NCBI GenBank assembly: GCA_030407315.1
Contig: JALQPE010001682.1
Span: forward strand, 19,607 to 83,606
Direction: 5' to 3'
From: Asparagopsis taxiformis
Lineage: Eukaryota > Rhodophyta > Florideophyceae > Bonnemaisoniales > Bonnemaisoniaceae
DNA: 64,000 nt
Numbering within the stretch: the stretch's first letter is position 1; every line of letters begins with the position of its first letter. Below, one piece after another: positions 42,688-62,830 of the stretch. The notes under the pieces are model-generated. The model had not been told where the DNA came from. It did not search any database and saw nothing but the letters and a program-made list of their open reading frames with translations. The position numbers and the translations under genes are program-made.

Positions 42688-42951
42688 ATGACCCCTCGTG
42701 CTCCGATTCAATTCGAATCCTCTGAAGAGGAAGGAGACAATATGGGTTCGCCCAACCGTCCTACCACACGCTCCAGCGTTCGCAGTCCCACGACGCGCCA
42801 CCAGGCTTCCTCCTCCCGCACCGGGGTTCCGCCTACACCGGCTAAGTCTTCGTCGACTTCAGCGCCACGCGTGCCGTCAGCCACCGCGGCTCAATCGCAA
42901 ACGCGAACGTCTGTGTTCTCGGAAATGGACGCGGACGTCCACAACCTCTAG
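42688..42951 (+). CDS. Short Ser/Thr/Pro-rich ORF, possible truncated gag N-terminus
   Basis: An 87-aa ORF with ATG at 42688. It starts with an acidic patch (FESSEEEGDN) and continues as Ser/Thr/Pro/Arg-rich disorder, then stops inside the 47-bp inverted repeat (42908-42954). The composition resembles disordered N-terminal extensions of algal gypsy gags, and a degenerate gypsy pol lies on the far side of the 20-kb element at 62837. A truncated gene cut by the insertion is possible but not shown. Confidence 0.3.
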   Translation: MTPRAPIQFESSEEEGDNMGSPNRPTTRSSVRSPTTRHQASSSRTGVPPTPAKSSSTSAPRVPSATAAQSQTRTSVFSEMDADVHNL

Positions 42952-42954
42952 TAC
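42908..42954 (+). repeat. Left 47-bp inverted repeat
   Basis: It runs from CGTCTGTGTT to CTCTAGTAC and includes the palindromic GCGGACGTCC. It is the inverted partner of 62784-62830, with six mismatches. Confidence 0.7.
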
Positions 42955-44544
42955 ACCTAGTATTACTAGGCGGACGTCCATGTTCTCCAGTATTTTTGGA
43001 TGTCCGCCTAGAACCGGACGTCCATGCGGTCTAGTACGTCTAGTATTACTAGGGCGACATTCATTGTTTCTAGTACCACGGATGTCCCCCTCGGGATGGA
43101 CTTCCGCCATGTCTATGTCCACCTAGGACGGGCGCCGGTTCAGAAATTCAAAAATTTCGACCCCAGAAATTTCTGCCGCCGTGCTCGACATGGATGTCCG
43201 CATCCATCACGGCGACCACTCTATTTTTCCTTGTCGGTCGACTCCAATTTCGTCTTTAATTTTTTCATCCTCTCGCTCACACCCCCTTCCAGTTGGTGCT
43301 CACCTCCCCCGTACTGTACCTCAAACACCCCCAATACCACTCTAGCACGCATTTTCAGCTACCTATCCCCGCTTCCACGGTGCACACCTCCATTCCATAC
43401 CTACTTTTCTGCTCTACCGTACAGATTTCGTATAACCAGTCCTCATACTACCTCAGAATAGCGAAAAACACCCCCTATCTCCTCGACCATGCTCTCCCCC
43501 ATCACCTTTGCAACGTATTGTTCTTCAATACCCTCTCTCCTCTACCTTCAACCCCTCTCCTTCGCCCTCTCCACAAACTTCCCCTGCAGCTTACTCTTCG
43601 AAAACCTCTCACTCCCCATCCCGTACCCAACCTGCTCCACCCCTCCCTCCCTCAGCTGCTCCATGCCCCCCACGCCATCCACATCTTCGATACCGTATAC
43701 AGCACCACCACCGGCCCACGCTCCCGCTCCCCCGCCGTCTCCCCAGAAACCCCCCCCGCTCTGAACCACATATGAACCCCCCACTTCGCACCCATCCTCT
43801 CACTCCCCTCCCTCCCCAAATACAATAACCCCTTCTTCTCCATCACATCCCCACTCACCATAGCCAGAACAGACGCCACCCCCCTTCCCGCCTCTTTTTC
43901 CTCACTTTCCTAAAAACCCCTTCCTCTCGGCGCCTTCAACCGCACCCTCCTACGGCCCCACCTAAACACCTCCTCCACTCTCACTACCCCAACACCCCGC
44001 AGCGTCTCCCCAATCCCCATAATATGCTCGTCGGCACTCCTCTCCGAATCACACTCCAATCTAAACCCGCACTCCGTACATTTCCACCTCCCCCTGTACC
44101 ATCCATAGATTCCATCCCCCCACAGAACACATCCTCATACCACAGAACAATTTTCTTCCTCTCATACCTCATCCTTAAAACCTCCATCTGCTCCATGTAA
44201 ATTTCGATGTAAATATTTTCTCCACTATGCAATCTCAAACATGTACGAGCCTATGACTTTCCGCTTTGTCAACCCTGAATATTGGTACTCATGTATTCAT
44301 AAAATAGGGCCACCCACATCCCTATCCCGTTCTGCAAGCTTTACAAACCACCAGACGCATACTCCACAACTATACAACAAACACTACTCGCTATTTCAGA
44401 CGACGCGGTACACAAGTAGCGTAGTCTCAACCTTCCGTGCAGCCTTCCCTGATGCGTACAAGTGCGAAACACGTCTAGACTACTACTACTACTACTACGA
44501 TATAGTATATCAGAAGTGACTGCGGGAATTTTCGGCACAGGAGA
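42955..44544. other. Left subterminal region of the element
   Basis: 42955-43140 holds repeated GGACGTCC-type and CTAGTATTACTAGG motifs, the same vocabulary as the right end. 43200-44240 is strongly C/T-rich on the plus strand. Open frames exist on both strands, including a minus-strand one at 43984-44238, but I recognise none and treat them as products of skewed composition or a decayed gene. Confidence 0.45.
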
Positions 44545-45490
44545 TGCTGGGTAACCAAATTGATTTTTCGGAAATTTTAGAATTTCTGGGCTGGCCAGCA
44601 GTGCAATCGAGCTGGACATCCACCGGACGTCCATTTCAGGTTGGTCGTGAGAGAGTGGGGCGGGACCATGATGAAACAAGGACCAAGACCTGTCCCTGGC
44701 GTATTGAGCCTGAAATCGACCCGTCGTGAGACGCGATTTTGCCTTACAGTTGGTGCTTATAGAAGCCAGTGATAGCCCCGATCGGGGCGGCGGCCGGTTC
44801 CGGCTTACAGTTGGTGCTTACAGACGCCAGTGATAGCCCCCGATCGGGGCGGCGGCTCCGGTTCCTGGGGCCGTTGTGGCCAAATTAGACACCCTGATTT
44901 GAATTAAAATTTGGGCTATTCTCAAAAACATGCACATGTGAACATGTTTTTGAGATGGGGGTGTGCCGTACGGCACAATCGACCCGCCCAAATCGATGTT
45001 TTGCAATATTTTTTTGTGCCCGAAATTTTAGAATTTCTGGGCTGGCCAGCAGTGCAATCGAGCTGAACATCCACCGGACGTCCATTTCAGGTTGGTCGTG
45101 AGAGAGTGAGGCGGGACCATGATGGAACAAGGACCAAGACCTGTCCCTGACGTGTTGAGCCTGAAATCGACCCGTCGTTAGGCGCCATTTAGCCTTACAG
45201 TTAGTGCTTACAGAAGCCAGTGACAACCCCACTCGGGGCGGCGGCCGGTGCCTGGGGCCGTTGTGGCCAAATTAGACACCTTGATTAGAATTAAAATTTG
45301 GGCTATTCTCAAAAACATGCACATGTGAACATGTTTTTGAGATGGGGGTGTGCCGTACGGCAGAATCGACCGCCCAAATCGATGTTTTTTGCAATGTTTT
45401 TTTGTGCCCGAAATTGTAGAATTTCTGGGCTGGCCAGCAATGCATCTGAGCTGGACATCCACCGGACGTCCATTTCAGGTTGATCGTGTA
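44545..45490 (+). repeat. Palindrome repeat cluster, one partial and two full copies
   Basis: Full copies start near 44891 and 45275, each ~200 bp, with the right half of another copy at 44560-44640. Each contains a 34-nt imperfect palindrome (44921-44954; 45308-45341) with arms CTCAAAAACATG / CATGTTTTTGAG around a CACATGTG core, then the 14-bp palindrome GTGCCGTACGGCAC (44963-44976; last base G in the copy at 45350-45363). Each ends in CCACCGGACGTCCATTTCAG. The spacer between copies is also repeated, giving a ~390-450-bp tandem period. Confidence 0.85.
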
Positions 45491-45756
45491 TCGTGCACGT
45501 CCACACATTACCGGAAGCAAGTAGGCGATGAAGCACGTACAAACCCAATTGTTCTGCTATTTCTACCATAGACCATCGAGTCTAGAGATGTGAGGGAATC
45601 GTCCTGGAAATCATGCTCCAACCCACGAGGGAATGGACAATCTAGTTTGAAAGCATGGAACGGAAGTACATTATACTAGGTTCATAGATTGAAAGTGATA
45701 AAGGAGATGATTATATTCTCGATAATTGTTTACCAAAGTAGTAGTTGTTAAGCTAT

Positions 45757-48700
45757 CTAGCCGTCGGAAAATTGTTCTTCGTCTTCGTCCTCATCATATT
45801 CAGGATCTCCCGGCAGAATAGGCGTTATCGGCAACCGTGGAGTTGATCTGCTCAAGATGAATTCTTCACCCAGTGTGAGGGTTCTCTTCTTGGGAGCTTC
45901 TGTCGTCTTCATCCGCATGATTCCGAGCTGCCCTGTCTTCGGCCTACGATCTTTCTTGACCGGGATGGGAACAACTGTCTTGTGGCGAACATTGACAGGT
46001 GCCGGTTGACTTTGCCTGGCAGACCGGCGCGGAGCATTGGGGATTACTTCTTCTTCGAATCCCAACCGCCTGATGAAACCAAACGAAACATTGTCGGGAA
46101 TCGGATACGACGCATTCCTGAAATACGTGTGATACCTCGTTGTCGTGTGTGACACAACTCTGTCGACATGCCCTGCCCCGGCATGTTGTACATGGCCGTG
46201 ACCGATGAAGACTGAACGTGGCGGAACGATTAACTTCTTCAGCTTCATCGTCTTGGCGTACATATCTAATTCCAGCGCTTTGGAAAAGACGTACTTGTGG
46301 GACCCTGGACACACCCAGATAGGGAATGGGTCATCTCCGTTGGCAATAACAAAGTAACCCGGAAGTTGATCTTTGCGGTCGCGAGGAGGAACTGGGAAAT
46401 CATTGTGTGGGACCTGCCGAGGACACCCCTTTCCCGTTATCAAAAACCGTCCCCCAGATGCCGGCATGACAAGTTTTTCTCCCGGTAAACCGCACTCCTC
46501 CAGCCCTATCAGCCGGACAAGGATTCCCAACCACACATCCAGCAGGGCTCGCCGCGTCACAAACTTGAACCGGTCGATATGCGTCTCATCGTTCTCGGCA
46601 TAGTCAACCAGGCAGTGGCGCGTAGACGTGAAGCGAGCCCTCCCCTCATTCCGGTTCTTCTCATCTGTTTCATCGTCCCCCGTATTGACAATGGGACTCC
46701 ACAGCTGCCGGTTCCCAGGGTCCTTGTGCACCTGCTCCCCCTCCCATGTTCCCAAGAAGTACCGAAACAATTCCTGGTTAGGAATTTCTTCCATGAGACC
46801 CAAGTCAAATGGGAACTTGTCCGACGCATCGAGGTAGCTTACATCCGCGAAATTGTGCATCACCGTATACCCTCGCTCGTTGATTTCCGTTCGGCAATTG
46901 TGGAAGTACGCCATACCAGTGCCGGCCTCATACGAATCCTTCCAGCTTGTAGACATTCGCGCAACCTGGGCGAAGTCCAGCCTCGAGGGTAGAAACGTCG
47001 ATGTAGGCTCACACATCGCCTTGGCAGCCATCTTCCACGCTGCGAAAAACATCGGATAGATGGTCTCGATCTCGAAAACAAGATGACGAGCCCGATGTTG
47101 TTCCGGAATATGCAGCCCCTCAAACACAGGGTCCATCGCCACTTGCTTCAAATACCTCACCTCTCTGCCCTCCTCATCGATTTCCACACTCTCCAATAAC
47201 AACCTGAGCTCAATCGGGGGCAGACAGCCAACCCTCACCGATGCGATGACGTCCGCGGGACGCTGCGCCAGATGATGCCCTTCGGCTCGGTCTTTGACTT
47301 CGAAATCGTCAGGAAGAGATGGCATACGGTCGTCGAACAGGAGGTCGTGTTCAGATGGAGAGTCACGAACGATGTAACCGTCTTCATCGACTTCGACTCC
47401 TTCCGGAACAGTGAGTGTAATTGTCACTTCGCGGACCCCCTTGCTTTTGACATGGCCCTCATCTGCACTGTTGTTTTCTTCCTCGTCCGAAGCGGTATGG
47501 ACAGATTCTTGGTTGGAGGGAGTCGCACCAGCACGTTGGTTATCTTGGGGGACAATCTCAACGGCAGAATCGGGGGAACGGGCGGAGTCTTCGTCACCCT
47601 CATCACCGGAAACAGTGGCTTGTTGTTGATCGGTGGGTTTATCAACAACGGCCTGCTCTTCTTCCCCGGCGGATTGTTGTACCACAACCGGCTCTTCTTC
47701 CTCGAGGCGTGTGCTCCCCGTCGAGCGAAGTCGCTGTGAACGGCGGCGGATGCCATGCGAAGCAGGCTCATGTTCGACATTCCGCTGCTTCTTGTGAGTG
47801 AGTCTCACATTGGCAGCAGAAGGGCGGCGTTTGCGTCGAGCCTTAGTCTTCTTCTTCAATGTCGGATTGAAAAACTCTTTCAAGTTCGTTTCCAAATCCT
47901 GTAAACGCGTGGTTCTCCGTCGCATTCGAACCTCACTGCTCCGGTCGTCCCCTCTATACATTGCAATGGCATTGGTGAGATGCCATTGCAACTCCTTCGG
48001 CTGCTTAACCGACCCAATTGCAATCTCTGTGCTCAGAAATGACTTGCGCATAATACTCTTTGGGCGCCCAAACGCAGCGTACAGAGAATTTGCTATTGCA
48101 GTCACGCGACGGACGTATGTATAGAAGTCGTTCACGTCAAAGCGTCCATCCGGACGTCCACCATGAGCAGGGTTCAAGTACTCCGAAAGACCACGCAAGA
48201 CGAAGACAAAGTTTTCTTCCAGCAACTCGCGCACTATCTTGTGGTCCAGGTGCGTTATCCCAATCTCGTTGCGGCGCTCGGAATTGTTCAGCTCACGCAA
48301 CACTTCGTCGAGAACAGGATGCTTCAGCGTTGCTATAGCCAAACGCGTCCACCGCCGAGCCGTGTTCGTCGAATTCATCATCCCCATGAACTGCGCCTCG
48401 AACAATGTTCGGATGACATCAGACTCACGCAAGTCGCCAGCGTTTTCCACGTTATTTGCAACAGCAATCGTACGGATGAACTGCTGGATGGACGACAAGA
48501 TTCGAACCAGGGAGCGCTCCGTCAGTTGCGTCCCAGTCGTATGGTTCGACTCTGCACTCTTGTGGATGATCTCATGAGGCTGAAGATCACTGTTGTCCTT
48601 GCGGCGAAGGTAGTACACATCCAGAGGCTGAGTAACCCAGCGCAAGCGGTTTGCGTCCTGTGGCAGCTTGGTTCTGTGCATACGGGTGAGGCGCGTGAAG

Positions 48701-49755
48701 TCATCGGCAATGCTATGCATAGCATTGAGACGATGCAGTCCGTCGATCACGGTCACGTTCGCATTGGCATGGAATTTGCCATTCTGGAACAGACGCGTGT
48801 CGGCGGACAGATGCGTGTTCTGCGACCTCAGCACCGTCACAGTGATACGCGAAGAGCTCACATACCCCACAGCCAACATATTGTTGCGCAGGTCCTCCAC
48901 GTGGTCTTCTTTCACATCCCGAAGGGTCACGGCCGGTTCCACTAGCTGCCTCACCAACACAGTCGCTCCTTCTCCGACGTAATCCGACGTCACAAACTTG
49001 GGCACCGTAATTTGCGTCCCCTGCTGCTCACGAATGCTTTCCGCCACCTCCGGTTCGTCGTCCACCTCGGTTACGTCCTGCGTAGTAGCTTCGGTGACGT
49101 TGGAGCGAGCAGGGTGCTTCGTGCCTCCACTGGAGGCTCTAGCAGAGCGAGCAGGGTGCTTCGTGCCTCCACTGGAGGCTCTGGCAGAGCGAGCAGGGCG
49201 CTTCGTGCCTCCCGAAACCGGGACGGAGCGTGCTGGATGCTTCGTACCCCCCGAACCAGTGATTTCGCCTGCCGGACCGGTACTGGGCATCCGTCCCGAG
49301 CTGGCCTGGTTCGTCGCTGCGTTGAAGTTTGACGCTGCAGCAGGGGTACGAATGTCGCTAGGGCCATCCTCCGCAGCGGGGCGCATCATCCGAGTATCCC
49401 AAGGGTAAAACGCCGCGGCGTATGCTCCACCCATCGTCTCCGGCGGTCCCTCGGCGCCATCAAACATGTACGGGAACGGGAGGTCCTTGAACTTGTCCTT
49501 AGTCGCAATGTTGCGCACGACGATATAGTCCGCCTCGTCGGTTTCCGGCAGCTTGTGGTTGTGCAGCGTGCGCGGAAGGCCAACATCGCCACCAGCAGTG
49601 CTCACCGAAGCCGTCCCAATATGCACAGCCGCACCGTCCACGTCCGCAAACAAGTCGACATCGACGCCGCGCTTGAGTCCGCGCGACTCCGCTGACGCGC
49701 TCACTTGATCGCCGCAAACCGTTGAAAACAAACTGCTGAAATGCGTATCCGCCAT
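45757..49755 (-). CDS. Gene A: ParB-like domain fused to 2OG-Fe(II) dioxygenase-like domain
   Basis: A 1332-aa protein. I chose the ATG at 49755 (MADTHFSSLF); the frame stays open upstream without an ATG that fits better. Residues ~180-235 hold four GGTKHPARS-type repeats. Residues ~265-390 are a ParB/Srx-type domain with the signature VIDGLHRLNAM (about 335-347), followed by a helical region. A bipartite NLS-like KKKTKARRKRR and a long acidic linker come next. The C-terminal third (about 1000-1250) resembles a double-stranded beta-helix dioxygenase: HxD in RQVPHNDFPVPP, a distal His in HGHVQHAGAGH, and a 2OG-binding Arg candidate in TTTRYHTYFR. ParB-like proteins occur with TET/JBP oxygenases in phage DNA-hypermodification systems, so DNA-base oxidation is a reasonable inference, not a demonstrated one. 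Intact ORF; divergent from gene B. Confidence 0.7.
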   Translation of the reverse strand: MADTHFSSLFSTVCGDQVSASAESRGLKRGVDVDLFADVDGAAVHIGTASVSTAGGDVGLPRTLHNHKLPETDEADYIVVRNIATKDKFKDLPFPYMFDGAEGPPETMGGAYAAAFYPWDTRMMRPAAEDGPSDIRTPAAASNFNAATNQASSGRMPSTGPAGEITGSGGTKHPARSVPVSGGTKRPARSARASSGGTKHPARSARASSGGTKHPARSNVTEATTQDVTEVDDEPEVAESIREQQGTQITVPKFVTSDYVGEGATVLVRQLVEPAVTLRDVKEDHVEDLRNNMLAVGYVSSSRITVTVLRSQNTHLSADTRLFQNGKFHANANVTVIDGLHRLNAMHSIADDFTRLTRMHRTKLPQDANRLRWVTQPLDVYYLRRKDNSDLQPHEIIHKSAESNHTTGTQLTERSLVRILSSIQQFIRTIAVANNVENAGDLRESDVIRTLFEAQFMGMMNSTNTARRWTRLAIATLKHPVLDEVLRELNNSERRNEIGITHLDHKIVRELLEENFVFVLRGLSEYLNPAHGGRPDGRFDVNDFYTYVRRVTAIANSLYAAFGRPKSIMRKSFLSTEIAIGSVKQPKELQWHLTNAIAMYRGDDRSSEVRMRRRTTRLQDLETNLKEFFNPTLKKKTKARRKRRPSAANVRLTHKKQRNVEHEPASHGIRRRSQRLRSTGSTRLEEEEPVVVQQSAGEEEQAVVDKPTDQQQATVSGDEGDEDSARSPDSAVEIVPQDNQRAGATPSNQESVHTASDEEENNSADEGHVKSKGVREVTITLTVPEGVEVDEDGYIVRDSPSEHDLLFDDRMPSLPDDFEVKDRAEGHHLAQRPADVIASVRVGCLPPIELRLLLESVEIDEEGREVRYLKQVAMDPVFEGLHIPEQHRARHLVFEIETIYPMFFAAWKMAAKAMCEPTSTFLPSRLDFAQVARMSTSWKDSYEAGTGMAYFHNCRTEINERGYTVMHNFADVSYLDASDKFPFDLGLMEEIPNQELFRYFLGTWEGEQVHKDPGNRQLWSPIVNTGDDETDEKNRNEGRARFTSTRHCLVDYAENDETHIDRFKFVTRRALLDVWLGILVRLIGLEECGLPGEKLVMPASGGRFLITGKGCPRQVPHNDFPVPPRDRKDQLPGYFVIANGDDPFPIWVCPGSHKYVFSKALELDMYAKTMKLKKLIVPPRSVFIGHGHVQHAGAGHVDRVVSHTTTRYHTYFRNASYPIPDNVSFGFIRRLGFEEEVIPNAPRRSARQSQPAPVNVRHKTVVPIPVKKDRRPKTGQLGIMRMKTTEAPKKRTLTLGEEFILSRSTPRLPITPILPGDPEYDEDEDEEQFSDG
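49100..49262 (-). repeat. 42-bp coding repeat inside gene A
   Basis: About four units, 42 bp each where best preserved, encode GGTKHPARSARASS-type 14-residue repeats near residue 200 of the ParB/dioxygenase protein. The basic composition (His, Lys, Arg) suggests nucleic-acid contact. Confidence 0.75.
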
Positions 49756-50032
49756 GGTTGTTGAGTTGGAAAGGAAAAGAGATGGTTGACGTTGACGTAT
49801 TCGAGTGATGTGGATGGTATGTTTCACGTTGAAGAATTGTCGTGAACGCCAATCGCTGGAAATAATAACACAATAGAAACGAAATTTTGTTAGGTACACA
49901 CCTATCGTGACCGCTGGAATGCAAGACAGGCAATCGAGATGTGAGTGTCCGTTCGGAACGGGCCCGAGTCGGGCTCTCGAAACCTGACGAGGTGGCGTGA
50001 AGCAGGCAGTGTCCTTGATGTGTAATGTGTTA

Positions 50033-50300
50033 AAATTACAGCTGTCAAGGTAGGCGGCTTTTGGGGCGGCTGCGAGCACCCCTTTATCCGGGGAACACCC
50101 TGATTTGAGTTAAAATTTGGGCTATTCTCAAAAACATGCACATGTGAACATGTTTTTGAGATGGGGGTGTGCCGTACGGCACAATCGACCCGCCCAAATC
50201 GTTGATTTTTGCAAGATTTTTTGTGCCCGAAATTTTAGAATTTCTGGGCTGGCCAGCAGTGCATCTGAGCTGGACATCCACCGGACGTCCATTTCAGGTG
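50033..50300 (+). repeat. Palindrome repeat copy 3 (extended form)
   Basis: It contains the 34-nt palindrome at 50127-50160 and GTGCCGTACGGCAC at 50169-50182. With 54588-54845 it forms an inverted pair of about 260 bp enclosing the methyltransferase-SET gene. Confidence 0.8.
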
Positions 50301-50579
50301 GTCGTGTGCTGCCTACATCCACGCATTGCAGCAACTAAGCAGGCGGGTTCACTACTAATATAAAGTGCACGGAATATGAGTAACGTGATGGGTGAGTATT
50401 GTTTGTGTTGAGGGAGTAAGGCGGGACCATTATGAAACACGGAAGAAGATTTCTCCCTAGCATAACTTAGGCTTGAAGCCTGGAATCGACCCATCTTTCG
50501 GTGCCATTTAGCCTCACAGTTCGTGCTTACAGAAGCCAGTGATGACCCCGCTCGGGGCGGTGGCCGGTGCCTGGGGCCG

Positions 50580-50782
50580 TTGTGGCCAAATTAGACACCC
50601 TGATTTGAATTAAAATTTGGGCTATTCTCAAAAACATGCACATGTGAACATGTTTTTGAGATGGGGGTGTGCCGTACGGCAGAATCGACCGCCCAAATCG
50701 ATGTTTTTTGCAATATTTTTTCTGCCCGAAATATTACAATTTCTGGGCTGGCCAGCAATGCATCTGAGCTGGACATCCCCAT
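50580..50782 (+). repeat. Palindrome repeat copy 4
   Basis: In the same orientation as copy 3. The 34-nt palindrome is at 50627-50660. The final GGACGTCC segment is lost: the copy breaks off after GCTGGACATCC. Confidence 0.8.
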
Positions 50783-51149
50783 GTCCAGTGGCCGTCCGGA
50801 TGTCGCTCACCTGGTAAGCGTGATGCACCTGTGACAACCTATGTGACTGCAGTCACAGCCGCCATGGCGGCCGTGCAGTACAACACTCAAAGACAGGGAA
50901 TCACAATTGTGATGTGTGAAAGATTAATCTTTTTAAACTTTTTCTCTACCACGTATCCGTCACAACTTATTACCTACACCGATTACGGGTTTCAAGACCT
51001 TTCCATTGCTGTGTACCCGTATACTCTGTTCCGTTCGATATCAACCAGTGTTCCTCACGAAAGAGTGCAAACGTCACGAGATACGTCGTCAAATTTGACT
51101 GTCTCGCCGAGCGGTCGCCATCCTGTACCGAATTTCCACTCATTCCATT

Positions 51150-54100
51150 ATGACGAATAAGCGCAGGCGCAACAGCAATCCGATCGTTGACGACGCAACC
51201 GTGCCAATTCTGCGCGAACCCGCTAGCCCTTGGGAGGATTCTAGTGACATGGGTACACGTCGAAACGTAGGTCGCGCCGCCCGCGAAACTACTCTCGCTG
51301 GCAAAGACTTCCTCCGCCTCTTGCTGGATTTATTCGCCCACTCAAGTTTCGCAGACTTGACGGACAAGCCGGGAGGTTTCACATACGCGGACCTTGGCGC
51401 TTGGGTTGCGCAGGGCACGGAAGAACAATTTGCGGCGCTGCAAGGTCGACTCAGCATGGCCTTCAGCGGTCGTTCGAAGAATGCTGGAGTCGAGGCGGAT
51501 GTTGCCGAAATCGTCATGGCAGAGATGAACGTTGAGCGAGCCAAGCAGATTGTTCGTCTGGCATTACCGATTGCCGAGTTTTCAAGACAGGATGAGCGTA
51601 TCGGGCAATGGGTTGAGCACTGCATCCTTTCTGGGATCGTGCCGCAGACCTTCCTTATTGGATGTAACATGCTTCCTTCGCCACTACAGGCGCCGCAGCG
51701 CGGGGAACCAAGCGCCTTCGTTCTTGCTCCACCGGAAACGTTCGAGGTATTGATGTATTTCCAAGCGTTGTCTATCATCCGAAATCACAACAAGAACCTG
51801 CCGCGTCGCCGAATAGGCGACGCGGCCGAAGAGGGGAACGAAGCCGCACGCGTCCCAGCCCATCGGAAAAGCACTAATCGAGCTTGTTACGTGGTTCAAG
51901 TTTTATACCATGCTTGGACCGATGTGGCCTTCGCCGCAAAGTTTTCCAGCTTCGAAGAGTTGATGGCGCCGTACATCATTTTCGACAGCAGTGAGCATTG
52001 GTTTGACGTGCTCGATGAAGGTCTATTCGCACCGATGGAGCAGAAGCTAGATCTCTACCACGACAAAGCTCCCCTATCTCATCCTGATGGATATGGTGGA
52101 AAAGTAGAGACAAGAACCAGTGCGCAGCACAGTGCATTTAGGGACCTTGTGAGGAAGTTCTTCGACCGGTTGCAGTTTCTTATCGTCAACCCGGACCTGT
52201 ACACCTGGCCGGAGTCCGACCGCTGGGGGGCGCTGGAAATATACTTGTCAAGCGGAAATCCGGACAAGCTGCCAGCGTACTTTGACACCCTCGACGAAGA
52301 CGTTATGGCTGTCCTCCGCCCGGCACCACAAGCCGCGGACGCAGAAAAGGTCCCCAAGCCGGTTGATGACACTCCCACTCGTCGCAACACAGGAGGGAGA
52401 GGTTTGGTTCCGTCGACAAGACACACAACCAGGCTTCAACTTGGACCTGGGAGGACCAGTCTTACTGCCCAAGGGCCGTCGTCTCCCCCGTCACCGTCAC
52501 CCCATGCGACAGAAGAGCAGGAAAGTGAAGGGCAGGCTCTCGCAAAGGACTTTCTTTCGAAAATGAGTCAGTATTGCCGGGTGTACGACGTCCCTTTCGA
52601 AGATTTGGTCAGTGCCGACGAGAGCCGAGAACACGTGCCCATCACGGGCAACGTTCAGCTCATTCTGACTGATCCGCCCTACAATGTTCGTCGTAAGAGG
52701 AACGATTCCAACTCTTCGTACGACAGGCTAACTGCAGAAGATATGCAGGCTAGCATCGAAGTGTTTGACGAGCTGTTGCGCCCCGGTGGCCACGGCATCG
52801 TGTTCTGCTCCGTTTTGCAGTTCTACGAATGGTTCCATTACTTGGAAACGTACAAAGGACCGCAGTCAGAAGGCCCAACCGATGCTGCTGCCAGTGATGA
52901 CGGGTCGGATGAAGAAGAGGTTACGTCCATGAATTCGGACTCCGAAGCATCGCAGCACAGTGGCGAAGAAAGTGCGGATGAGGAGGAGGACGAGGAGGAG
53001 GAGGACGTCGTTCGGAATTCAGTTTTCTTCGTTGACGAGGTACCTCTGTTGTTTGTCCGACTACCTGGGCACCTCTATCAAATGCCGGGGCGGAAGAGGT
53101 ACCAACGCATGAACATGGCAGAGGTCGCTATCCACTTCTGGAAGCGAGGTGTTCCGTTCAAGACTGAAGCGAGGTGACTGGAAGCGAGATGGTGGCCTAT
53201 AGGAACCACGGATACATGGACGGCACGTACCCGGCGTGGTGCAACGTCACCATCAATATGCCCGCCATCGATTCGAATGAGATGGTGTGGCGAACAAGGA
53301 GCACAACCGGTGCTACGGTCAGAGTTCGTGCAGAGCAGAAGAGCGTCGCTCTCATGATGGAGTTGATCAGCCAGCATTCACAGCCTGGTGATATTGTTGT
53401 CGATCCATTCTCTGGCACTTTCGCAACGGGAAAAGCAGCTATGAGCTTGCCTGAGCACCGTGTTTTCGTCGGCAGTGACATGGACAAATTGTGTGTGGCA
53501 CGATCGCTTCCAAAGCTGTGTGCAGTCATGTCACGTGTAATTCTTTCAAACAACACTGACATGAGGGTCACGACAGAAGCGAAACAGAGTGCTGAGAAGT
53601 TCTTGGCGTCCCCCTCTGTCACGATGCGTACGCAGAGGGAACGCAGGATCATCGAACCCCCACCTGGCCTTCCCCTGTACCAGAGGTTCCCGAAATATAT
53701 TCGGCAGTACCTCTGGCAGCTGTGCCCAGAGTCGATTGCGTCGCACGAGCACATGGAAAAACCGGTACATTATTGGCCACCTTCCCTGCGCCGCTGGTTG
53801 CAAACTGAAAACCCTCGCGTGATGCGGGCACACGATTGTGTTGCGAAAAAATTGAGCGTTCGACCATCGCTGATTAAGCATCCAAATGCAGGAAGAGGGC
53901 TCTTCGCTGAACAGACATTTAATGTTGGCGACGAAGTATGTGCATACTACGGAACTGTTGTGTACTCTGATATGAGCAAGGAGTCGATGAGGTTCGCGTA
54001 CGGAGAGGGTCACATGGCGATAACGAAGGAAACATTCTTGATGTATGCCATCAAGCTGTATGCAACAGCGGAGGACGACGAAAACATCGAGCATCCAATT

Positions 54101-54364
54101 TGGATTGTTCCGGCTCCGTTCTGTTCGGCGCAGTTCATCAACGACCCGCGGTATTTGCGAGGTGAGGACACTCCGGCGGAAGACACCAGGCGGATGGCCA
54201 ACGTCGAGTTTGTCGAGAACTACAGCAGCGGTTCGACGGGGAAGAAGCTCAAGGCGAAGGACCTAGAAAATCCGAAGATCATTGTAGTACGTGCAATCCG
54301 CGATATCTGTCCGAGGCAGGAGCTCTACGTTCATTATGGGACAGCGTTTAGAGCATGGAATTAG
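51150..54364 (+). pseudogene. Gene B: DNA amino-methyltransferase fused to SET domain, broken by one small duplication
   Basis: ATG at 51150. Residues 1-490 are a novel helical region plus disorder. The methyltransferase core has catalytic ILTDPPYNV (DPPY at 52671-52682, residue 508), LRPGGHGIVF, an acidic insert (EEEDEEEEDVV), then VVDPFSGTFATG (from 53402) as the SAM motif. DPPY before the SAM motif marks the beta-type order of N4-cytosine/N6-adenine enzymes. The C-terminal SET domain (about 53840-54364) shows NAGRGLFAEQTF, AQFINDPR, NVEF and QELYVHYGT. The frame breaks at 53165-53190, where GACTGAAGCGAGGT is followed by GACTGGAAGCGAGA: a ~14-bp tandem duplication that makes a stop at 53177. 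Reading resumes at once, so the damage looks recent or an assembly error. Likely roles: DNA and histone-lysine methylation in the nucleus. Confidence 0.75.
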
Positions 54365-55024
54365 GGTCACGAAAGATGTTTTCATTTCGACTACAAATAA
54401 AGCTACGTTCCAGAGTTGAAGTATATCATATAATGCAGCATGTCCAGCCACCATTAGTCCAGGGTGAAACCTATTGAGCAGTACTCGCCTGTCAAAAACC
54501 AATCGTTCACACTCTAGGTGCACTTCGTCCGAGCAGTGAACCTGACTGCTTGGTTGCTGTTATGCGTGCAGATGCAAAATACACGACCAAGTTGAAATGG
54601 ACGCCCGGTGGATGTCCAGCTCAGTTGCATTGCTGTCCAGCCCAGAAATTCTACAACTCAGGGCAGAAAAAAATATTGCGAAAAACATCGATTTCAGCGG
54701 GTCGATTGTGCCGTACGGCACACCCCCATCTCAAAAACATGTTCACATGTGCATGTTTTTGAGAATAGCCCAAATTTTAATTCAAATCAGGACGTCTTCC
54801 GGACATAGGGGTGCTCGCGGCCTAGCTCGACAGCTGTAATTGTACCTCATTAAATACTGTTGATGACTGCCTACCGTATACAATCTGGGCTGTTGGCGTA
54901 TTCTCCGGTACTTGACCTGACCTGAACGTTCATCGCAGACCGTTGTGGTTACCGACACTATACAGCAATCTTTTTTGTATCTCGTGCAACTCAATCCTTC
55001 CATCGCTTCCGGGAAGGCTTCATT
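54365..55024. other. Intergenic region between genes B and C
   Basis: It holds the inverted palindrome repeat (54588-54845) and presumably the promoter of gene C. I see no ORF of interest. Confidence 0.5.
54588..54845 (-). repeat. Palindrome repeat copy 5 (inverted)
   Basis: Reverse orientation relative to the other copies. The 34-nt palindrome is at 54730-54763. The outer flank (GACAGCTGTAATT, 54828-54840) matches the outer flank of copy 3 in reverse complement, so the two copies mirror each other around gene B. Confidence 0.8.
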
Positions 55025-57309
55025 ATGCCGCCGCGTATTGCGAAGAAAGCTCCAAAGCCTCCGGGCCTCCAGAAAAACCGGTCAGCAGCTGCTGTATCGA
55101 GTGCCCGACAATCCCGTGCGAAGAAGCGGTGTGGGCCTACCGGCAGCATTGAACCGCGGTCCGGTAGTCGCAAGACGGACCGGCGCAGAACTGGGGATCC
55201 GCAGCGAGAAAGTGAGGAAGGAGGAACGGCGCGGAGAGAGATGGGGCTTGACCGAGGCAAGCGTGCTCGCAGGGACAGTGAACATCATGATGATGACATG
55301 ATAGTGGCTCAAAACATGTTGGAATTGCGGCAGAGTGCTATGGCAAAGGTAGTTCCTCCCGGGTTGGCAGATGCGGAGGTGCTGCAGACGGAGTCCCAGC
55401 CGGGGGTTCGCGAGACACTGGAGGCTGTGACCCCCACTGCGCCAACTATGCCGAGTACATCAGCCCCAGCAGGTAATGCAGTCAGGGACCCGAGGATAGC
55501 GGCAAGGGATGTTGTTTCTGAGCAACGTTCACAGGATGCCAACTATCATCGGCGGTCAGGTGGTACTGAGGGGAGAGAGCAGCCGGAGTGCGGGCCTCGT
55601 CACAACAGACTGTCATTGGTGCCAAATATGCGCGTAACGCCCCCGCGACGTCAGGCTATTGCCGATGGAGGACATCATAATCCCGATAGCGTGGGAGATG
55701 GGGGGACGGTGAGGGCAGAGAGGTTGCATCCGCCGGAATCCATCGATTTAATGGCGAGTCGCATCAATGCGCAGAAGAAGAAGATCGCGGAGCTGGAAAA
55801 AAAGTGTTTAGCCAGGACATAGCAAACAAGGCGCTCACCACGGAGATAGTTGCGTTGGAGGCTAAGGTGAAAACTCTGCAGGCGGAAAATGCCAGCCTTA
55901 CTGCAATTGCGAGAACAGGTAGAATCAGTGATCACGGTGGCGGTAAGTCGAAAATACAGAAAGCCATTCCTGTGAAATACCTTGGAGTTCTTAGGGCGGT
56001 TGAGGAAAACCTGACAAAGTGGTGCAAGAACGAGACTATGGAGCTGGACCCTATAGCGGAACAAACGCAGAGACGTTGGACTGGACGTACCATCGAGGTA
56101 GAGCCGGTAGAAGGGACACTTTGGAGCGAAAACGGTGTAGGATATATTGCTACCCCTCCGGGCTATATCATCAAGAATCTGCAGTGGTATACACCTTCGT
56201 ACAGAGACGAGAGTGATCTGCTGAATGACTTGGTGCGACACGTACTGCGTCAAAGTCCGTGGTGTGATGTGTTTTCCGATGAGGAGCAGCGTGTGTGCTG
56301 TCAAGAGGCTGTGGCGGGGAGCAAGGAATTGAAAGTGAAGGTGACGCAGAAACTGTCCGACGTGATGAGTGCACGGAAGCGTAATGCGAGGGACAGATTG
56401 TTCGGTTCGCTGGGGTACACGAAATTAATGTCTAGATGCACGATGCTGACGACGCGAGCTGAGATGGACGAGCGAGAGGATCAAAAGCGCGAAGCGTCTG
56501 AGAAGCTTTTGAAACGGGAAAGCAACGGTGATTTGGATATGGGGAGGTGGCGAACGGCACCGTTCTCAGAGCTGCGATACAGCAAAGGCATGGTTCCTGA
56601 CAGCTTCGAAATGGAAGTGAATGGTGATGCATGGTTTAACAACCGAGTAGCTGTGAATGTGCTGGACATCTTCAGGGGTTATTCGATACGACCAGAACAA
56701 GTAATGGACATAGAGACGAGCATACTAACGCTGGCGCGCCTGGATGCTTGGCTAGTGACTACTGTGGAGTGTTTGGATGAACCGAAGGGGAAAGGAGGTG
56801 CACGGCAGAAGGAGTTTACAAGGCGGTACAGTCAATATGTGGGGGTAGCTTTTCAGCAATTAGTTGGTATGGTGGTGTACTGCATGTCTTGTCTCCAAGG
56901 CTCGCAAGCAAGGGAAGAAACGGACGTTGTCGAGAGCGAACAGCGGACTAGTGCACAGTCACGGCATGTGTTTGCAAGCCGTACTGTGACGAGAGAGGCT
57001 GTTGAAGTGTGGCAAAGCGGAGAGGGGTCTGGAATTGTTCATGTCGTTGATGATGTAAACCGCTGCTCATCACTTGTTCTAGTGTCCGAGGATTGGATTC
57101 AATCGCATATTACGTCAAACCTCGGTGCTGTAATGGATTGTGTGATTGCGCAAGGACTAATTGGCGCAGAACTTTTCGTCGTTGACCCATATGCTGGACA
57201 CCTGAGTGCAAACCTGAATGTAGAAATCAATGCCCCACAGTATGGGGGCATGGAGCGGCGCCATGCAGCAACTGCTGATAACGGTTTTGGCGTAATGGAG
57301 GATGGTTGA
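55025..57309 (+). CDS. Gene C: unknown coiled-coil protein in two ORFs with putative -1 frameshift
   Basis: ORF1 (55025-55822) starts MPPRIAKKAPKPPGLQKN, is basic and disordered for ~230 residues and ends in a coiled-coil (INAQKKKIAELEKK). ORF2 (55804-57309) lacks a good ATG and continues the same coiled-coil (DIANKALTTEIVALEAKVKT). The overlap contains A AAA AAG at 55798-55804, exactly in phase with the ORF1 codons GAA AAA AAG. A -1 slip would continue as GTG TTT AGC in ORF2 and give a 761-aa fusion, with ORF1 alone ending at 264 codons. The ORF2 globular region has no recognised domain (WYTPSYRDESDLLND, MDIETSILTLARLDAWLVTT). A simple indel is the alternative explanation. Convergent with the transposase gene, 77 bp apart. 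Confidence 0.6.
55798..55804 (+). promoter_or_regulatory. Candidate -1 ribosomal frameshift heptamer A AAA AAG
   Basis: The heptamer fits X XXY YYZ in the zero frame of ORF1, and the -1 frame is precisely the frame of ORF2. I did not identify a definite downstream pseudoknot. Confidence 0.4.
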
Positions 57310-57386
57310 AATTAGTGCAGTAAATGTGACGTTGACTAGAAGGCTTATCATGTAGTACATTATCAATAGAGTGCTGCGATTTAGAT

Positions 57387-60300
57387 TTATTCTTCTTCAT
57401 TATCATCTGTGAACTGGTAATCAGTGTTGGTGTAGAAGCGGTTGAGATAGAAACGGTGGTCCGACCAGTGCATTTGTTTCGTAAATGGCTTGACTGGAAA
57501 GTTACTTCGTACGATGTGCACGGTGCCAGATATAGTAGATGCAGGAATGAGGTCAAACCAAGGACCACCTGCACTGTGGGATGCAGTGTCATTGCTGTCA
57601 ACGGATCCGTTGTCCGGGTCCCATGTGGACCACTTTAAACAAATGCACCCAAGTGATTTTTCCACAGCGGTTTTTGGGGCAAAGCAGGTCATATACTGAA
57701 CGAAAGCGAGTTCTACAGGTTGAAACAGGTTTGGAGACTGCAGGCGTACCAGTGCCAGGACGCGCCCTACCCATATGGTTCTGTAGTCATCGGCAGTTCC
57801 GGAGATGACGACAAAGGAGTACTGCGATCTCTTTGCGGGGCCGAATGATGAAGTTGCAAAGACGCGCTGCTGCTTGTGCCTCGACACGTTTGTGGGGCGA
57901 AGCATGCCACTGTGCGGGTCAAAGTCGTCGGCATCTGGGACGTACCCTCCCATGACGTAGGCGGACTTTACCGCGGTGACGGAAATGTCCATGTCATGTA
58001 TTGGAGGGCCTTCTGCCGTGGCGCGCAGTCTAGCGAGGGTGAGGAACGCTTGTGCAGCTGTGTCACCGAGTTGCTGGAATAGCGTTATGGTGCCAGACGG
58101 GAACGAGGAGTTGTGCAGAGGCAAAAGAGTGGCAGGATCGGGCTGTCCGTCGATATCTGCAACGAGGAGGGTTGCATCGGGCAGCAGGGAGGCAAAGTCG
58201 TGCAGTGCAACGGTGAATCCGTCGCGAACGAGTACTGCACCGTCTGTGGGCGATATCATGCGTGCGTTTCCCAATGTGTTCGATGGGGTATGACCAGTTG
58301 GAGTGGCCAAGGAGAATTCCATGTGGCGAATAGTCTCTTCCATGGCTGTGGAGCGCCTTCGAGAGGTTTTCCTATAACTCTGTTTGAACAGAAGATGCGA
58401 GTGTTCGTAGGGGCCTGCATCAATGTGTTCCAGGGCGCCATATCTCTGCAAGTCACCGGGAAGATGGTCTAGAAGATGGAACTTGAAAGTTTTGAGACCT
58501 GTGGTGTGGAATGGGCCGAGGGTGGAGAGCATTGATTGTTTGAAATAGGAAATGGAGTTCTGGAGGCTTTCTAGTTCGGCGGCAGTCCAGTGCTTGATGC
58601 GACCGCGTTTCATGACCCATGCGACGAGGTCAGAGTATTGCGTGCAGATGGAAGTGAGGGGGCTGTCTCTACTTCGTCACAGCATGTGTCAATGAATGCT
58701 GCGATGAAAGGGAACACCATGTCGACATGGTGATAGTCTTTGGCTGCGAGCATGCCGCGTATGCCGTCCTCCGTGAAGAGGCCGTTCAAATTGGTGCCCT
58801 TCTCACCCTTGGAGAAGTCGACATGAAGACCGGTGATGTAGTAGTCGCGTTCGATAGCGGACAGAATGCTGTTTGAGCCGGCGAGGATGGATTTTTTCAC
58901 CTTCTTGAAGGTGCGAGGTGTCCCGGAATGGGAGGCAGTGGTGGTGGTGAGGTCTGGGGAGCTGAGGCGGTGGACAATGCACTGTTGATGAGCTTTGAGA
59001 TGCCGAGGTGGAGATTGTGCAGAGGCTCGAAGGAGAAAATGTTGTAGGGGTCTAGGGGACTGTTGGTGGGTAAAAGAGCGGTCGATTCGAGGACAGAGTG
59101 TTGTTCGAGGAGGGAGAGAGCTTCGAGCGGAGCAGTTGTATGCTCCTGAGCGCTCTCTTGGCGTGCAGAGCGTGTATCATCGAGGGAGCGGGGCTGGTGT
59201 GGCGCGCTGGATTCAAGTTGAGTGGCGGGGATGTAGCAGCGGTGGCAGGGATGTGTGGTGGTAGTGCTGTTGCGAGTGCATGAGAGCTCTTTGGCCTCTG
59301 GAAAGTCGCAGCAATAATTGGCTAGGATGGGAAAGCATTGGCGGGCAGTTGCAGTGGAGTCTGTGCAGGGGAACCCGGAAGAGAACGCGGTGGATAGGGA
59401 CGAAAACACTTTTTCGAGTGCTTTATGAAGAATATCAATTTTGCGAGCGCGACTAGCAGAACTAGAGGTTGTCGGCATTTCATCACCGAACAAGGCGTTG
59501 GACGAAGGGTTAACAATGTACGGAAGATACCCGACGATGGTGAGGCCGGTACGGATGCAGTGGCGACGGAGGGGGGCGGAGAAGTTGAGCAGTGTGACGT
59601 GTATGGGGTATGCGACGATTGCGGAGCTCTTGAGGCTTGTGCTGCTCTTGTCGGAGTACACTTGGAGGAGGCCGGCAAAGGAGGAAGGTGTGGGATCATT
59701 TTCCTCTGCCCATACGACCTGTGGATCTTCCGAGAGCTGCACGCGCTGTCTAGTAACCTGGTGCAGCGTTTTCGCGAATTCTGTGTGTAGGGGATGAGAA
59801 AATATTGCGGTGCCGTCTGGGGCGGTCTGTGGGGAGGGGTGGAAGAGAGTATTTTGGTCGTTAGCCAGTGCTAACTGCCTGCGGAGCATGTCGACTGGTC
59901 GCGGAGGTACAGCTGTGCCGAGTACTTACCAGTTTTGTCTGGAATGATGTGGCTCTTGTAACCTTCGGTGCGGAAATGTGTTTCGACCATGGAAGCGGTA
60001 ACGTGGCGACATTCTTCTACGGTGCGAACGGCGCTGTTGAACTTTTCTAGGGAGAATGCGGGGTCTTGTAGGATGGTGATGACTTCGCTCACGCGGCCAG
60101 CGCCGGCCTTGTACTCGAGGGTTGTGAGACTGGCGGCGAGGGATTGCACGAGGAGGTCTGCGCGGGAGGGGGTTGAGGTTGGTGGCAGTGGAGCGTCACA
60201 GGGTGAGTCGCTGGAGGAAGCACGACCAGATTCTGGGTCTGGGGAGCTGGGTTGCGGGGAATCATGGTCGCCGTTTCGAGCAGGCTCATGGGTGACGGCA

Positions 60301-60425
60301 GGGACACGAGCGTTGTTGAAATGTTGGGGAGAGGGGTTGAAACGGTAGCGACACGTTCGCTCATGCAGCGCGAGCGCATAAGCATCTACGCAGTAGTAGA
60401 AGCACCCTTCATACTTGCATTCCAT
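57387..60425 (-). pseudogene. Gene D: Plavaka/KDZ-like transposase, three frameshifts
   Basis: About 1010 codons in four overlapping ORFs (59871-60425, 58897-59889, 58610-58900, 57387-58613), ATG at 60425. The N-terminus is a C2H2-like finger (MECKYEGCFYYCVDAYALAL then HERTC). The first break falls in the phrase YLRD(P)VDMLRRQ. The core has VYSDKSSTSLKSSAIVAYPI, LTIVGYLPYIV, QCFPILANYCCDFPEAKELS, HPCHRCY and FSFEPLHNLHLGISK, as in transposases of the Plavaka/KDZ groups. Breaks two and three fall near 58900-58920 and 58660-58670 (a C5 run). The C-terminal part, with YSDLVAWVMKRGRIKHWT bridging a break and a BAH-like WFDLIPASTISGTVHIV, matches the tail of such transposases. As sequenced it cannot make a full protein. 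Confidence 0.7.
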
Positions 60426-61026
60426 GTCGAGTTTTGACGCAAAAGGGAGGATTGCGAGCTGAACAGGGGAGACTGTGCCGTCCAGATGCGACCAATTTTA
60501 TTTTTGTGGTGCTTTCGAGACTTGGAATGTAACGTGTTCGTTCGTAGTTTTGTGGGTAGTAGTTTTGTGCTCACTCCAGCTGACATCCCAACGGTGGAAT
60601 TTAACCGAGAGTTCAATCATTTCCAACTGTTACATCACATTGCGTGCTGGCAACGTGTGCATGGAAGGACGAACGACTGCCCTGGGAGATGAATTTTCAA
60701 TTAATTCATTAGTAATAATAAACTTTTTTATTTCCGAACTTCGTGGAATCTGAATGTGCTTTACAGCGGATATGCCACGGATCATGTAAGGAAAGCAAAT
60801 GGATTCTCATATATATGATTATATGTTTATATTCGTTGTTCTCGATCCGGATCTCATTGTTCGGGGAATCAGAGACCATGGCTTGGGCCATACTCAATCT
60901 CACTGCCGGCGATGATTTCGAGTATGCACAGCAAGACTTAAGCGGACGCAGAAAGCTGTCCGGTCGACGCCGCAGGCTCCACTCCGCCCTCATCACCGAC
61001 TGATATTCTTTGACCGACTTTGCTTT
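60426..61026. other. Upstream region of the transposase gene
   Basis: No ORF with recognisable features. It is presumably the transposase promoter. Confidence 0.4.
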
Positions 61027-61064
61027 GTACGTGCGCGAATCTTGATCAAGATTCGCGCACGTAC
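61027..61064. repeat. Perfect 38-bp palindrome
   Basis: 19-bp arms without any spacer, starting GTACGTGCGCG and centred on TTGATCAA. No mismatch. It lies just before the 230-bp repeat array. Confidence 0.9.
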
Positions 61065-61129
61065 CTTCGTTCCATCCTCTACCCTCGAGGGTATGCGTTG
61101 AGGGAAGCGTGGGTTTTGAGTCTGACTAT

Positions 61130-62010
61130 TTCCGTTGATGCGATATTTTTCATGGGAAGCCTGTTGACTGATGGTGTGTATTGAGCGGAGGATGGAAGAG
61201 AGGTACGTGAAGTTTTGAAAGTATGCTGTGAGGGAAGGTTGGTTTTGAGTCTGACTGTTGTGGTTGATTCCGATGTTGTGTAGATGATGCAGGAATGTTG
61301 ATGACGGAAGGTAAGTTTCATTGAGTGCCAAGATGTGCTTTGCGAAGATATGGACTGCTGACTATGATTATTATTCATTGCAAGGTTTTTGGATCATGGT
61401 TTGTATTGTGTGTAGGATGGATGAGAGGTACATTTGCGAGTTCTCAGGGTATGTAGCGAGGGAAACGTTGGTTTTCAATCTGACTGTTGCGATTGATTCC
61501 GATGTTGCGTAGGTGATGGAGGAATAGTGATGACGGAAGGTAAGTCACATTGGGCGCCCAGACCGGTTGTGCGAAGATGCGGAATGCTGACTACTTTTCT
61601 TGGCTACACGATTACGTGATTTATGGTTTTTATTGTGTGCAGGATGGAACAGGTAAGGTAAGTGTGCGAGTTTTGAAAGTAAGCAGCGAGGGAAGGTTGG
61701 TTTTGGGTCTGACTGTTGTGGTTGATTCCGATTTTTGTGTAGATGGTGCAGGAATGTTGATGACAGAAGGTAAGTTTCACTGAGCACCAAGACTTGTTTT
61801 GCGAAGATATGGACTGCTGACTTTGATTATTCATTGCAAGGTTTTTGGATCATGGTTTGTATTTTTGTGTAGGATGGATGATTCACTCATCCTCTCGGAG
61901 AGGTAAGTAAGGGAGTTTCTAGGATATCTGTCGTGGTAAGCGTTTGCTTTTGAATCTGACTGTTGGGGTTGATTCTGATGTTGTGTATGTGATGCAGGAG
62001 GGGTGAAGCA
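61130..62010 (+). repeat. ~230-bp tandem array with regularly spaced splice-like signals
   Basis: About 3.7 units with anchors (GTTGATTCCGATGTT-type) near 61263, 61494, 61720 and 61968. Each unit has two AG|exon|GT cassettes. Candidate micro-exons: 61191-61202 (12 nt), 61284-61310 (27), 61416-61427 (12), 61513-61539 (27), 61643-61657 (15, or 10), 61743-61769 (27), 61873-61902 (30). The gaps between them are 81-105 nt, about the size of the true introns in this window. Most candidate exons are multiples of three. Whether it is transcribed is unknown. Confidence 0.6.
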
Positions 62011-62359
62011 GGAACGGCAGGACTGAAGGAGAGTGAAGAAGGGATCTAGGAAGATGGGGAATGAAGCTGTGAGGTGTTTCTGGTATGTGTATATTTTCGG
62101 GCATACGATAGAAGTGAGAGTGGGTTTCAAGTGGTGTAAGATTTTGCTGACCATGTTCGTGTTTTGATGTCTTGATGATTTAATGGGCTGGGGTGGTGTC
62201 GAGGAAAGCGGGGATGGAATTGGGAAGGAGCGGATTTTTGTAATCTAGGTCGTGAGGGTTCTTGAAGTATGTGCGGATGGTGGTGCATGGCGTTCGGATG
62301 GTAGGGAGAACGCGATATTGAGGGAGATGGGTGATCGACGATATGCTGACAGGTATTTT

Positions 62360-62490
62360 GTATTCTGGCTGGATACGTATTTCGTATTCTGGCTGGATAC
62401 ATATTCCGTATTCTGGCTGGATACGTATTTCCTATTCTAACCGGGTATTTATTTCCTATTCTGACCAGATATGTATTCCCTATTCTAGAG
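62360..62490 (+). repeat. 24-bp minisatellite, about 5.4 units
   Basis: Units at 62360, 62384, 62408, 62432 and 62456 plus a partial unit, of the form GTATTCTGGCTGGATACGTA followed by TTTC. The first three are nearly identical and later ones diverge. Confidence 0.85.
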
Positions 62491-62610
62491 AGACGTATTG
62501 TATAAGAGCAGTTTCCTAAATGAGAGAATAAAATACGGTCCGATATGGGCCCTGAATTTACCATCTGCTGTAATTTCTTCCCTCCCGGTTTTCGCTGATA
62601 TATTGTATAC

Positions 62611-62697
62611 TGGATGTCGGGGTCCTAGTATTCCGCCATATGTACTAGAGAAAGTGGATGTCGGGCCCTAGTATTCCGCCATATGTACTAGAGAAAG
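62611..62697 (+). repeat. 44-bp tandem duplication in right subterminal region
   Basis: Two units (62611-62654 and 62655-62697) carry CCTAGTATTCCGCC and GTACTAGAGAAAG and are followed by GGACGTCC. The motifs mirror those next to the left inverted repeat. Confidence 0.8.
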
Positions 62698-62783
62698 TGG
62701 ACGTCCGCATCCAAAAATTTTTATTTTTTTTGGGACGCGGACGTTCATTTGTTCTAGTAAATCTCGGGGCCGACTAGGACCCG

Positions 62784-62830
62784 TACTAGAGAGACTGGAC
62801 GTCCGCGTCCACTTCCGAAAACACAGACGA
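62784..62830 (-). repeat. Right 47-bp inverted repeat
   Basis: Inverted partner of 42908-42954, 41/47 identical, containing the same GGACGTCCGC core. Confidence 0.7.

Follow-up and report, generated by a model that had tools for sequence, protein, structure and literature searches.

The 64,000-nucleotide stretch of Asparagopsis taxiformis DNA analyzed here (the window; assembly GCA_030407315.1, contig JALQPE010001682.1) contains a real, recently amplified giant transposon of the Plavaka type with a conserved cargo of epigenetic-enzyme-like genes. The copy in the window occupies positions 42908..62829 (19,922 bp, no strand assigned) and has sharp ends that are common to many copies in the genome. 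Its four genes encode P1, with ParB-like and oxygenase-like motifs; P2, a DNA methyltransferase joined to a SET domain; P3, an orphan coiled-coil protein; and P4, the transposase. We assign a probability of roughly 0.6 to the reading that this recently amplified Plavaka-type element carries a cargo that would mark its own chromatin and counter silencing. A preliminary description of the window had proposed a transposon of some 20 kb whose cargo includes a DNA methyltransferase-SET fusion, and this proposal is supported by the ends, an empty site, and matches to PF01555 and PF00856 above their curated cut-offs.

The 47-bp inverted repeat described earlier at both ends of the element is real. 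Its left arm (42908..42954, plus strand) begins with CGTCTGTGTTCTCGG and its right arm (62783..62829, minus strand) begins with CGTCTGTGTTTTCGG when read on the minus strand; the arms are 87% complementary in the window copy. In the assembly searched (141,494,207 bases in 3156 contigs), a 25-mer from the left end had 1245 exact matches (627 forward and 618 reverse, versus 0 for the reversed control), with CG directly before it in 1204 of these occurrences. Two complete copies with both ends present were found elsewhere, C690 (21,305 bp) and C519 (21,262 bp); the left and right ends of each are identical at 41 of 47 positions, and the termini are CGTCTGTG..CACAGACG. These two were among seven copies outside the window of which stretches were fetched; the rest ran off the fetched stretch or the contig, or lacked parts of the element. 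When the left border was used as a 251-base query, 36 of the 40 scored matches (from 1392 candidates) lost similarity within 21 bases outside the element, and 4 continued into the flank, one being the window itself. Similarly, with a 301-base query for the right border, similarity broke off no more than 3 bases from the border at 37 of the 40 scored places (from 1690) and continued past it at the other 3, one being the window. If all 1245 exact ends belonged to full-length copies, the element would account for 26.5 Mb, or 18.7% of the assembly, an estimate that truncated copies would lower and copies with altered ends would raise. The very high copy number, together with a left flank of the window copy that is itself a repeat, could be taken to indicate a segmental duplication, a satellite, or an integrated virus instead of a transposon. 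We regard this as extremely improbable, since it is already contradicted by the sharp ends with differing flanks, the duplications, and the empty site, and since viral contigs contained no relatives of P4 or P1 and nothing but two short methylase matches to P2.

Filled and empty sites were compared to read the insertion product. The joined flanks of C690 matched at full length at 40 scored places out of 263 candidates, and the six matches that were read all showed an empty site with a single CT (6/6); the filled site consists of CT, then CG...CG, then CT. This arrangement is best read as a terminal CG that belongs to the element, flanked by a 2-bp duplication of CT. Taken alone, C690 would also fit a 4-bp duplication with a one-sided CG, a reading that we do not favor because the ends are symmetrical with CG and because C519 and C52 have TA on both flanks. 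The CG found before most left ends, and next to the true ends that were read, had suggested CpG-directed insertion, an idea that was dropped because the C690 empty site is best explained if this CG is part of the element. The flanks of C164 (TG/CG) and C221 (TG/AA) do not match. The search for empty sites and target duplications that the preliminary description had suggested gave both for C690 but neither for the window copy, which is flanked by AA/AC and for which none of 40 scored matches to the joined flanks spanned the joint (38 covered the left flank only and 2 the right only). The window copy may thus be rearranged, recombined between copies, or the result of an assembly join.

The four large genes noted previously were seen as reading frames, and they keep their co-linear arrangement from copy to copy, but in the window copy only P1 (45757..49755, minus strand, 1332 amino acids) lies in one open frame. 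P2 (51150..54364, plus strand) changes frame near 53.17 kb, an A-run near 55.80 kb breaks the frame of P3 (55025..57309, plus strand), and P4 (57387..60425, minus strand) is spread over three frames; this copy is defective and no longer autonomous. In C690 and C519, the genes follow the order of the window: P1 and P4 read on the minus strand and the two genes between them on the plus strand. The genes do occur together between the same ends, and these ends are no satellite dispersed independently of the genes; neither of the two outcomes that the preliminary description would have taken as refutation was seen. Per-protein counts given here and below refer to the best-scoring places listed (35 for P1, 105 for P2, 85 for P3, and 118 for P4). 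Every P2 with a scored neighbor within 16 kb had its nearest neighbor in the same order and orientation, and among the copies listed the pairing of P2 was complete with P1 (12/12, 6.9-10.3 kb apart), with P3 (20/20, 2.62-2.65 kb apart), and with P4 (29/29, 5.7-6.0 kb apart).

P4 is a single frame of 1013 amino acids in C519, C1600, and C2809, and it matched the Plavaka family (PF18759) with an E value of 2.8e-24 and 86.4 bits (curated cut-off 26.3). The earlier label of a Plavaka/KDZ-like transposase stands in its first half only; membership in KDZ is not supported, as Plavaka was the sole family matched and the duplication is 2 bp versus 8 bp for Zisupton. The duplications of CT in C690 and of TA in C519 and C52 agree with the 2-bp (or 3-bp) duplications expected of Plavaka. 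Fungal Plavaka elements, in the available text of PMC12730594, have 2-bp duplications and ends of TGT..ACA (type A) or CATCA..TGATG (type B), and the CGTCTGTG..CACAGACG ends match neither type. Judged from sequence, the element is therefore classed as Plavaka-type by its transposase and, by its ends, would fall in neither fungal subgroup.

The best-defined cargo protein is P2, which in C690 is one frame of 1067 amino acids with matches to N6_N4_Mtase (PF01555; E 3e-15, 57.2 bits, curated cut-off 26.7) and to SET (PF00856; E 9.8e-7, 29.6 bits, curated cut-off 22.4). A DPPY box at residue 506 is followed by an FSGT box at 748, so that DPPY stands ahead of FxGT as in N6-adenine members of PF01555; this motif order goes by the class name 'beta'. 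When a P2 profile was compared with PDB sequences, the methyltransferase part matched DpnA (5.7e-14), CcrM (2.1e-8), and RsrI (5.4e-8), with MboIIA also among the nearest, and the SET part matched EZH2 (3.6e-6) along with KMT2C and KMT5A (about 0.002-0.003). CcrM and RsrI act on adenine. P2 resembles DpnA and CcrM in these best profile matches and in the DPPY-then-FxGT order; to our knowledge, both enzymes are bacterial and, unlike P2, have neither a SET domain nor a long N-terminal region. The DNA-methylase half of P2 appears nearest to N6-adenine enzymes, which bears on the N4-cytosine/N6-adenine writer proposed earlier, and we read the whole protein as a putative double writer that would place adenine-type methylation on DNA and also methylate lysine. 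Among 15 database relatives of P2, one is 99% identical and the remainder are 25-33% identical; 10 of the 15 contain both domains according to precomputed annotation, and in an alignment of 16 sequences (P2 plus relatives) the DPPY, FxGT, and SET boxes (ND, YG) are present in most. At least 43 loci in contigs of prokaryotic genomes matched P2; among those listed, a single one is a full-length relative, and elsewhere the match was short or confined to the methylase part. The full-length relative, which is 25% identical (L074, WTKN01000331.1, positions 125-3151), lies on a contig of 3475 bases that is assigned to a Moorena cyanobacterial metagenome-assembled genome, and this contig is probably a eukaryotic contaminant.

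For P1, the proposed function is read from short motifs. It contains a DGLHR sequence (48718-48747, minus strand), a DGxHR box of the kind typical of ParB, and motifs like those of 2-oxoglutarate (2OG)/Fe(II) oxygenases, namely an HND box (46396-46428), an HAGAGH box (46168-46209), and a GSH box, all on the minus strand. Two relatives were found, 32% and 25% identical. The DGxHR box, the H1120-x-D1122 pair, and the GSH box are present in all three sequences, and the distal HAG is present in both of the sequences that extend that far. We take the 'PGSH' box of P1 to resemble phytanoyl-CoA-hydroxylase-like enzymes more than TET/JBP. No P1 relatives were found in phages, and in a PHROG search one of the three P1-family members matched one unnamed PHROG (E 0.02). 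The ParB-like/2OG-oxygenase fusion of the preliminary description accordingly retains its conserved motifs, kept in two diverged relatives, but gained no confirmation from Pfam, NCBIfam, PDB profiles, or hhalign, and we treat it as a motif-level reading.

P3 forms a single frame of 761 amino acids in C434 and C2809; the long P3 frame of C690 and C519 has 620 amino acids from the first ATG, not 761. It showed weak matches to coiled-coil families at about residues 240-300, and its sole database relative is one protein that is 99% identical. An A-run at 55790-55810 of the window divides P3 into two overlapping frames, and a short P3 frame occurs in most of the 85 scored copies; in many, as in the window, it has 539 amino acids. 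The split could be an inherited state, a homopolymer error, or a programmed frameshift.

Selection on the four proteins was assessed from minority codons in up to eight copies, counted as nonsynonymous:synonymous changes and as the per-site ratio of nonsynonymous to synonymous polymorphism (pN/pS). P1 had 53:41 changes (pN/pS 0.40) plus one stop, P2 had 17:14 (0.35), and P4 had 17:13 (0.41), with one-sided p values for constraint of 1.5e-5, 0.0044, and 0.015, respectively. Pooling P1-P4 gave 99 nonsynonymous and 74 synonymous minority codons (p = 1.4e-8). When synonymous sites were inflated 1.3-fold, the p values rose to 0.0055 for P1, 0.045 for P2, and 3.9e-4 for the pooled set. These values, together with those for P3 and P4 given below, support constraint on P1 and P2, give weak support for it on P4, and give no support for it on P3. 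Reading frames were also compared: 31 of 35 scored P1 matches have no internal stop, and long frames occur in 60 of 105 P2 matches (at least 1060 amino acids), 82 of 118 P4 matches (at least 1030), and 14 of 85 P3 matches (at least 790; rows 30-85 of the P3 tally were counted by eye). The open cargo frames and the reduced amino-acid change suggest that P1 and P2 may matter to the element. Passive capture, in which P1-P3 hitch-hike without benefit and look intact due to a recent burst alone, would agree with the 98.1-99.5% identity of the fetched copies to C690, with the absence of significant constraint on P3, and with the short frames in 45 of 105 P2 matches (under 1060 amino acids) and 71 of 85 P3 matches (under 790). 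We consider this explanation unlikely in view of the pN/pS of 0.35-0.41 for P1, P2, and P4, the long or uninterrupted frames of these three proteins, and the retention of the methyltransferase-SET fusion in distant relatives.

The element also possesses repeated motifs that could serve as recognition sites. The matching subterminal motifs noted in the preliminary description were recovered as a left cluster of GGACGTCC / CTAGTA motifs (42926..43110) and a right cluster (62611..62813) in which a 43-bp tandem unit bears the same motifs. Counting GGACGTCC and two one-base variants, the window element has 18 sites and both complete copies have 19 apiece, located near both ends and within internal repeats; 10 of the 12 exact GGACGTCC occurrences in the window lie inside the element. 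The internal repeats hold 36-bp near-palindromes (30 of 36 positions symmetrical) that stand beside GGACGTCC motifs: a block downstream of P1 (44575..45524, near-palindromes at 44920 and 45307), a block between the divergent P1 and P2 (50023..50778, at 50126 and 50626), and an inverted copy of the repeat upstream of P3 (54546..54852, at 54729). These five are the only ones in the window. Each complete copy contains six, and the genome contains 8204 occurrences at up to two mismatches (control 0); those listed on C9 and C10 sit about 1.98 kb inside the listed left ends. As a guess, the near-palindromes are candidate self-recognition sites bound by P1.

In the mechanism that we favor, P4 would recognize the 47-bp inverted ends along with the subterminal GGACGTCC motifs, and insertion would proceed by cut and paste with a 2-bp duplication; the ends, the mobility, and the duplication were shown by copy comparison. 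The cargo would move with the element and most likely help it to avoid or reset silencing. P2 would place an adenine-type mark on DNA and a second mark on histone lysines. The ParB-like part of P1, perhaps via the 36-bp near-palindromes, would bring the putative oxygenase to the chromatin of the element. A fuller version of this scheme, a self-directed epigenetic kit in which P2 methylates DNA and histones, a ParB-like-steered oxygenase acts at the palindromes, and more than 1000 copies share a private chromatin state, is a tentative proposal that we find possible but would not yet expect to hold.

Several results weigh against the proposal of a self-marking, silencing-resistant element. For P1 and its two relatives, Pfam at E<=5 returned no family, thus neither ParB nor 2OG; NCBIfam at E<=1 returned no family for P1; and the single P1 protein matched nothing among PDB sequences at E<=5. 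The three-member P1 profile gave ten weak PDB matches in which unrelated bromodomains ranked first (E 0.15) and the one dioxygenase, swnH1, lay below them (E 2.3), and an hhalign comparison of P1 with one ParB, that of phage P1, was negative. P3 showed no significant constraint (minority codons 12:6, pN/pS 0.61, p 0.23; 0.49 with inflated synonymous sites), and P4 was no longer significant with inflated synonymous sites (p 0.11). The compared copies are near-identical, and few independent changes were therefore sampled. GATC is depleted in the C690 element (41 seen versus 76 expected; 19 per 10 kb compared with 34 in window positions 1-36000, where it is mildly low at 121 versus 146 expected), which makes a GATC self-mark a poor fit. 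Finally, matching duplications were found in three of the six copies with both flanks read.

The same cargo could instead constitute an eraser system, in which P1, as an oxygenase, would strip a silencing mark of the host in the manner of TET/JBP and P2 would add an activating one. TET/JBP genes are carried by many fungal transposons, including Plavaka, according to the available text of Kojima 2025 (PMC12730594), and the HxD...H motifs are kept in P1. Transitions among eight copies are somewhat more frequent at the C of CpG (3.03 per kb) than at other C (2.01 per kb), a 1.5-fold excess that leaves some room for 5-methylcytosine (5mC). Against these points, TET/JBP similarity and any other 2OG family match were absent from P1 (Pfam at E<=5, NCBIfam at E<=1), and CpG is not depleted, with observed/expected ratios of 0.97 in the first 36 kb of the window and 0.98 in the element. 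A six-frame, exon-by-exon search of the genome for a cytosine-5 methylase (PF00145) found no candidate, although a split eukaryotic gene could escape this search because the ten positive-control genomes were all prokaryotes. We find little basis for a 5mC eraser, because no C5-methylase candidate was found, CpG is not depleted, and the CpG transition excess is mild; the TET/JBP-type oxidative eraser of the preliminary description is not upheld, and an eraser system in general seems doubtful.

It is also conceivable, at a similarly low likelihood, that the cargo serves transposition instead of countering silencing, by assisting the assembly of the complex, the coupling to replication, or the choice of target, with P1 bound to DNA and P2 methylating the ends. 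GGACGTCC is present at both ends and next to the internal palindromes, which speaks for such a role. Transposition is controlled by DNA methylation in IS10 and Ac/Ds, which offers a precedent. On the other side, the available text of PMC12730594 describes families of Plavaka in fungi that lack TET; Plavaka elements therefore need not carry an oxygenase.

The element was compared with systems described in the portions of the literature available to us. It shares with fungal Plavaka elements (PMC12730594) the transposase, the 2-bp duplication, and a putative oxygenase cargo; unlike those elements, it has CGTCTGTG...CACAGACG ends, a putative oxygenase that is not recognizably TET/JBP and is joined to a ParB-like part, and an additional methyltransferase-SET gene. 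SET genes are cargo in HarbingerS and oomycete MuDR elements as well (PMC12730594); these belong to other superfamilies, and a DNA methylase fusion is unmentioned in the available text. Giant EnSpm elements with accessory genes are described for the red alga Bostrychia (Petroll et al. 2025, as cited in PMC12477816); they too are giant CMC-type elements with several accessory genes, and the gene sets may overlap. The 21.5-kb Sola1-1 of Ectocarpus encodes a fusion of a ParB-like domain with an N4C/N6A methyltransferase, for which self-marking was proposed (PMC12477816). Sola1-1 is likewise a giant algal transposon with a ParB-like domain and an amino-methyltransferase, yet it belongs to another transposase superfamily, and the present element distributes ParB-like plus oxygenase-like and methylase plus SET over two genes. 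In Amoebidium, heavily methylated Plavaka giant repeats of up to 50 kb are described as clusters (PMC11244446). Those large units are also flanked by a Plavaka transposase, and some of their genes have red-algal relatives, whereas the cargo named in the available text is tyrosine recombinases. We met no report of a methyltransferase-SET or ParB-oxygenase combination in the transposon literature consulted, in which the Bostrychia work is represented by a citing paper only. Published work already covers giant EnSpm elements of red algae that bear accessory genes, as well as algal transposons with ParB-methylase fusions; the methyltransferase-SET and ParB-oxygenase genes look like a new variation on these.

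Other features were observed in and around the element. To the right of the transposase, at 61211-61881, tandem units of about 229 bp on the plus strand contain GTAAGT and TGTGTAG-like signals and look like repeated small exons, and a 24-bp array lies at 62353-62486. Just left of the element, positions 36485-41150 (plus strand) hold a Ty3/gypsy-like gag-pol in two frames, named from its translation, and pol-like coding sequence is also present to the right of the element. A single-frame gene at 32297-33529 (minus strand) has a TNPPYS box, and we take it to be possibly another amino-methyltransferase-like host protein.

If the cargo works as read, a mobile element would carry a single polypeptide that combines DNA adenine methylation with lysine methylation. 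Such an adenine/lysine-methylating element would reside in a genome whose search for cytosine-5 methylases gave no candidate, and the control by a transposon of its own chromatin would become directly testable.

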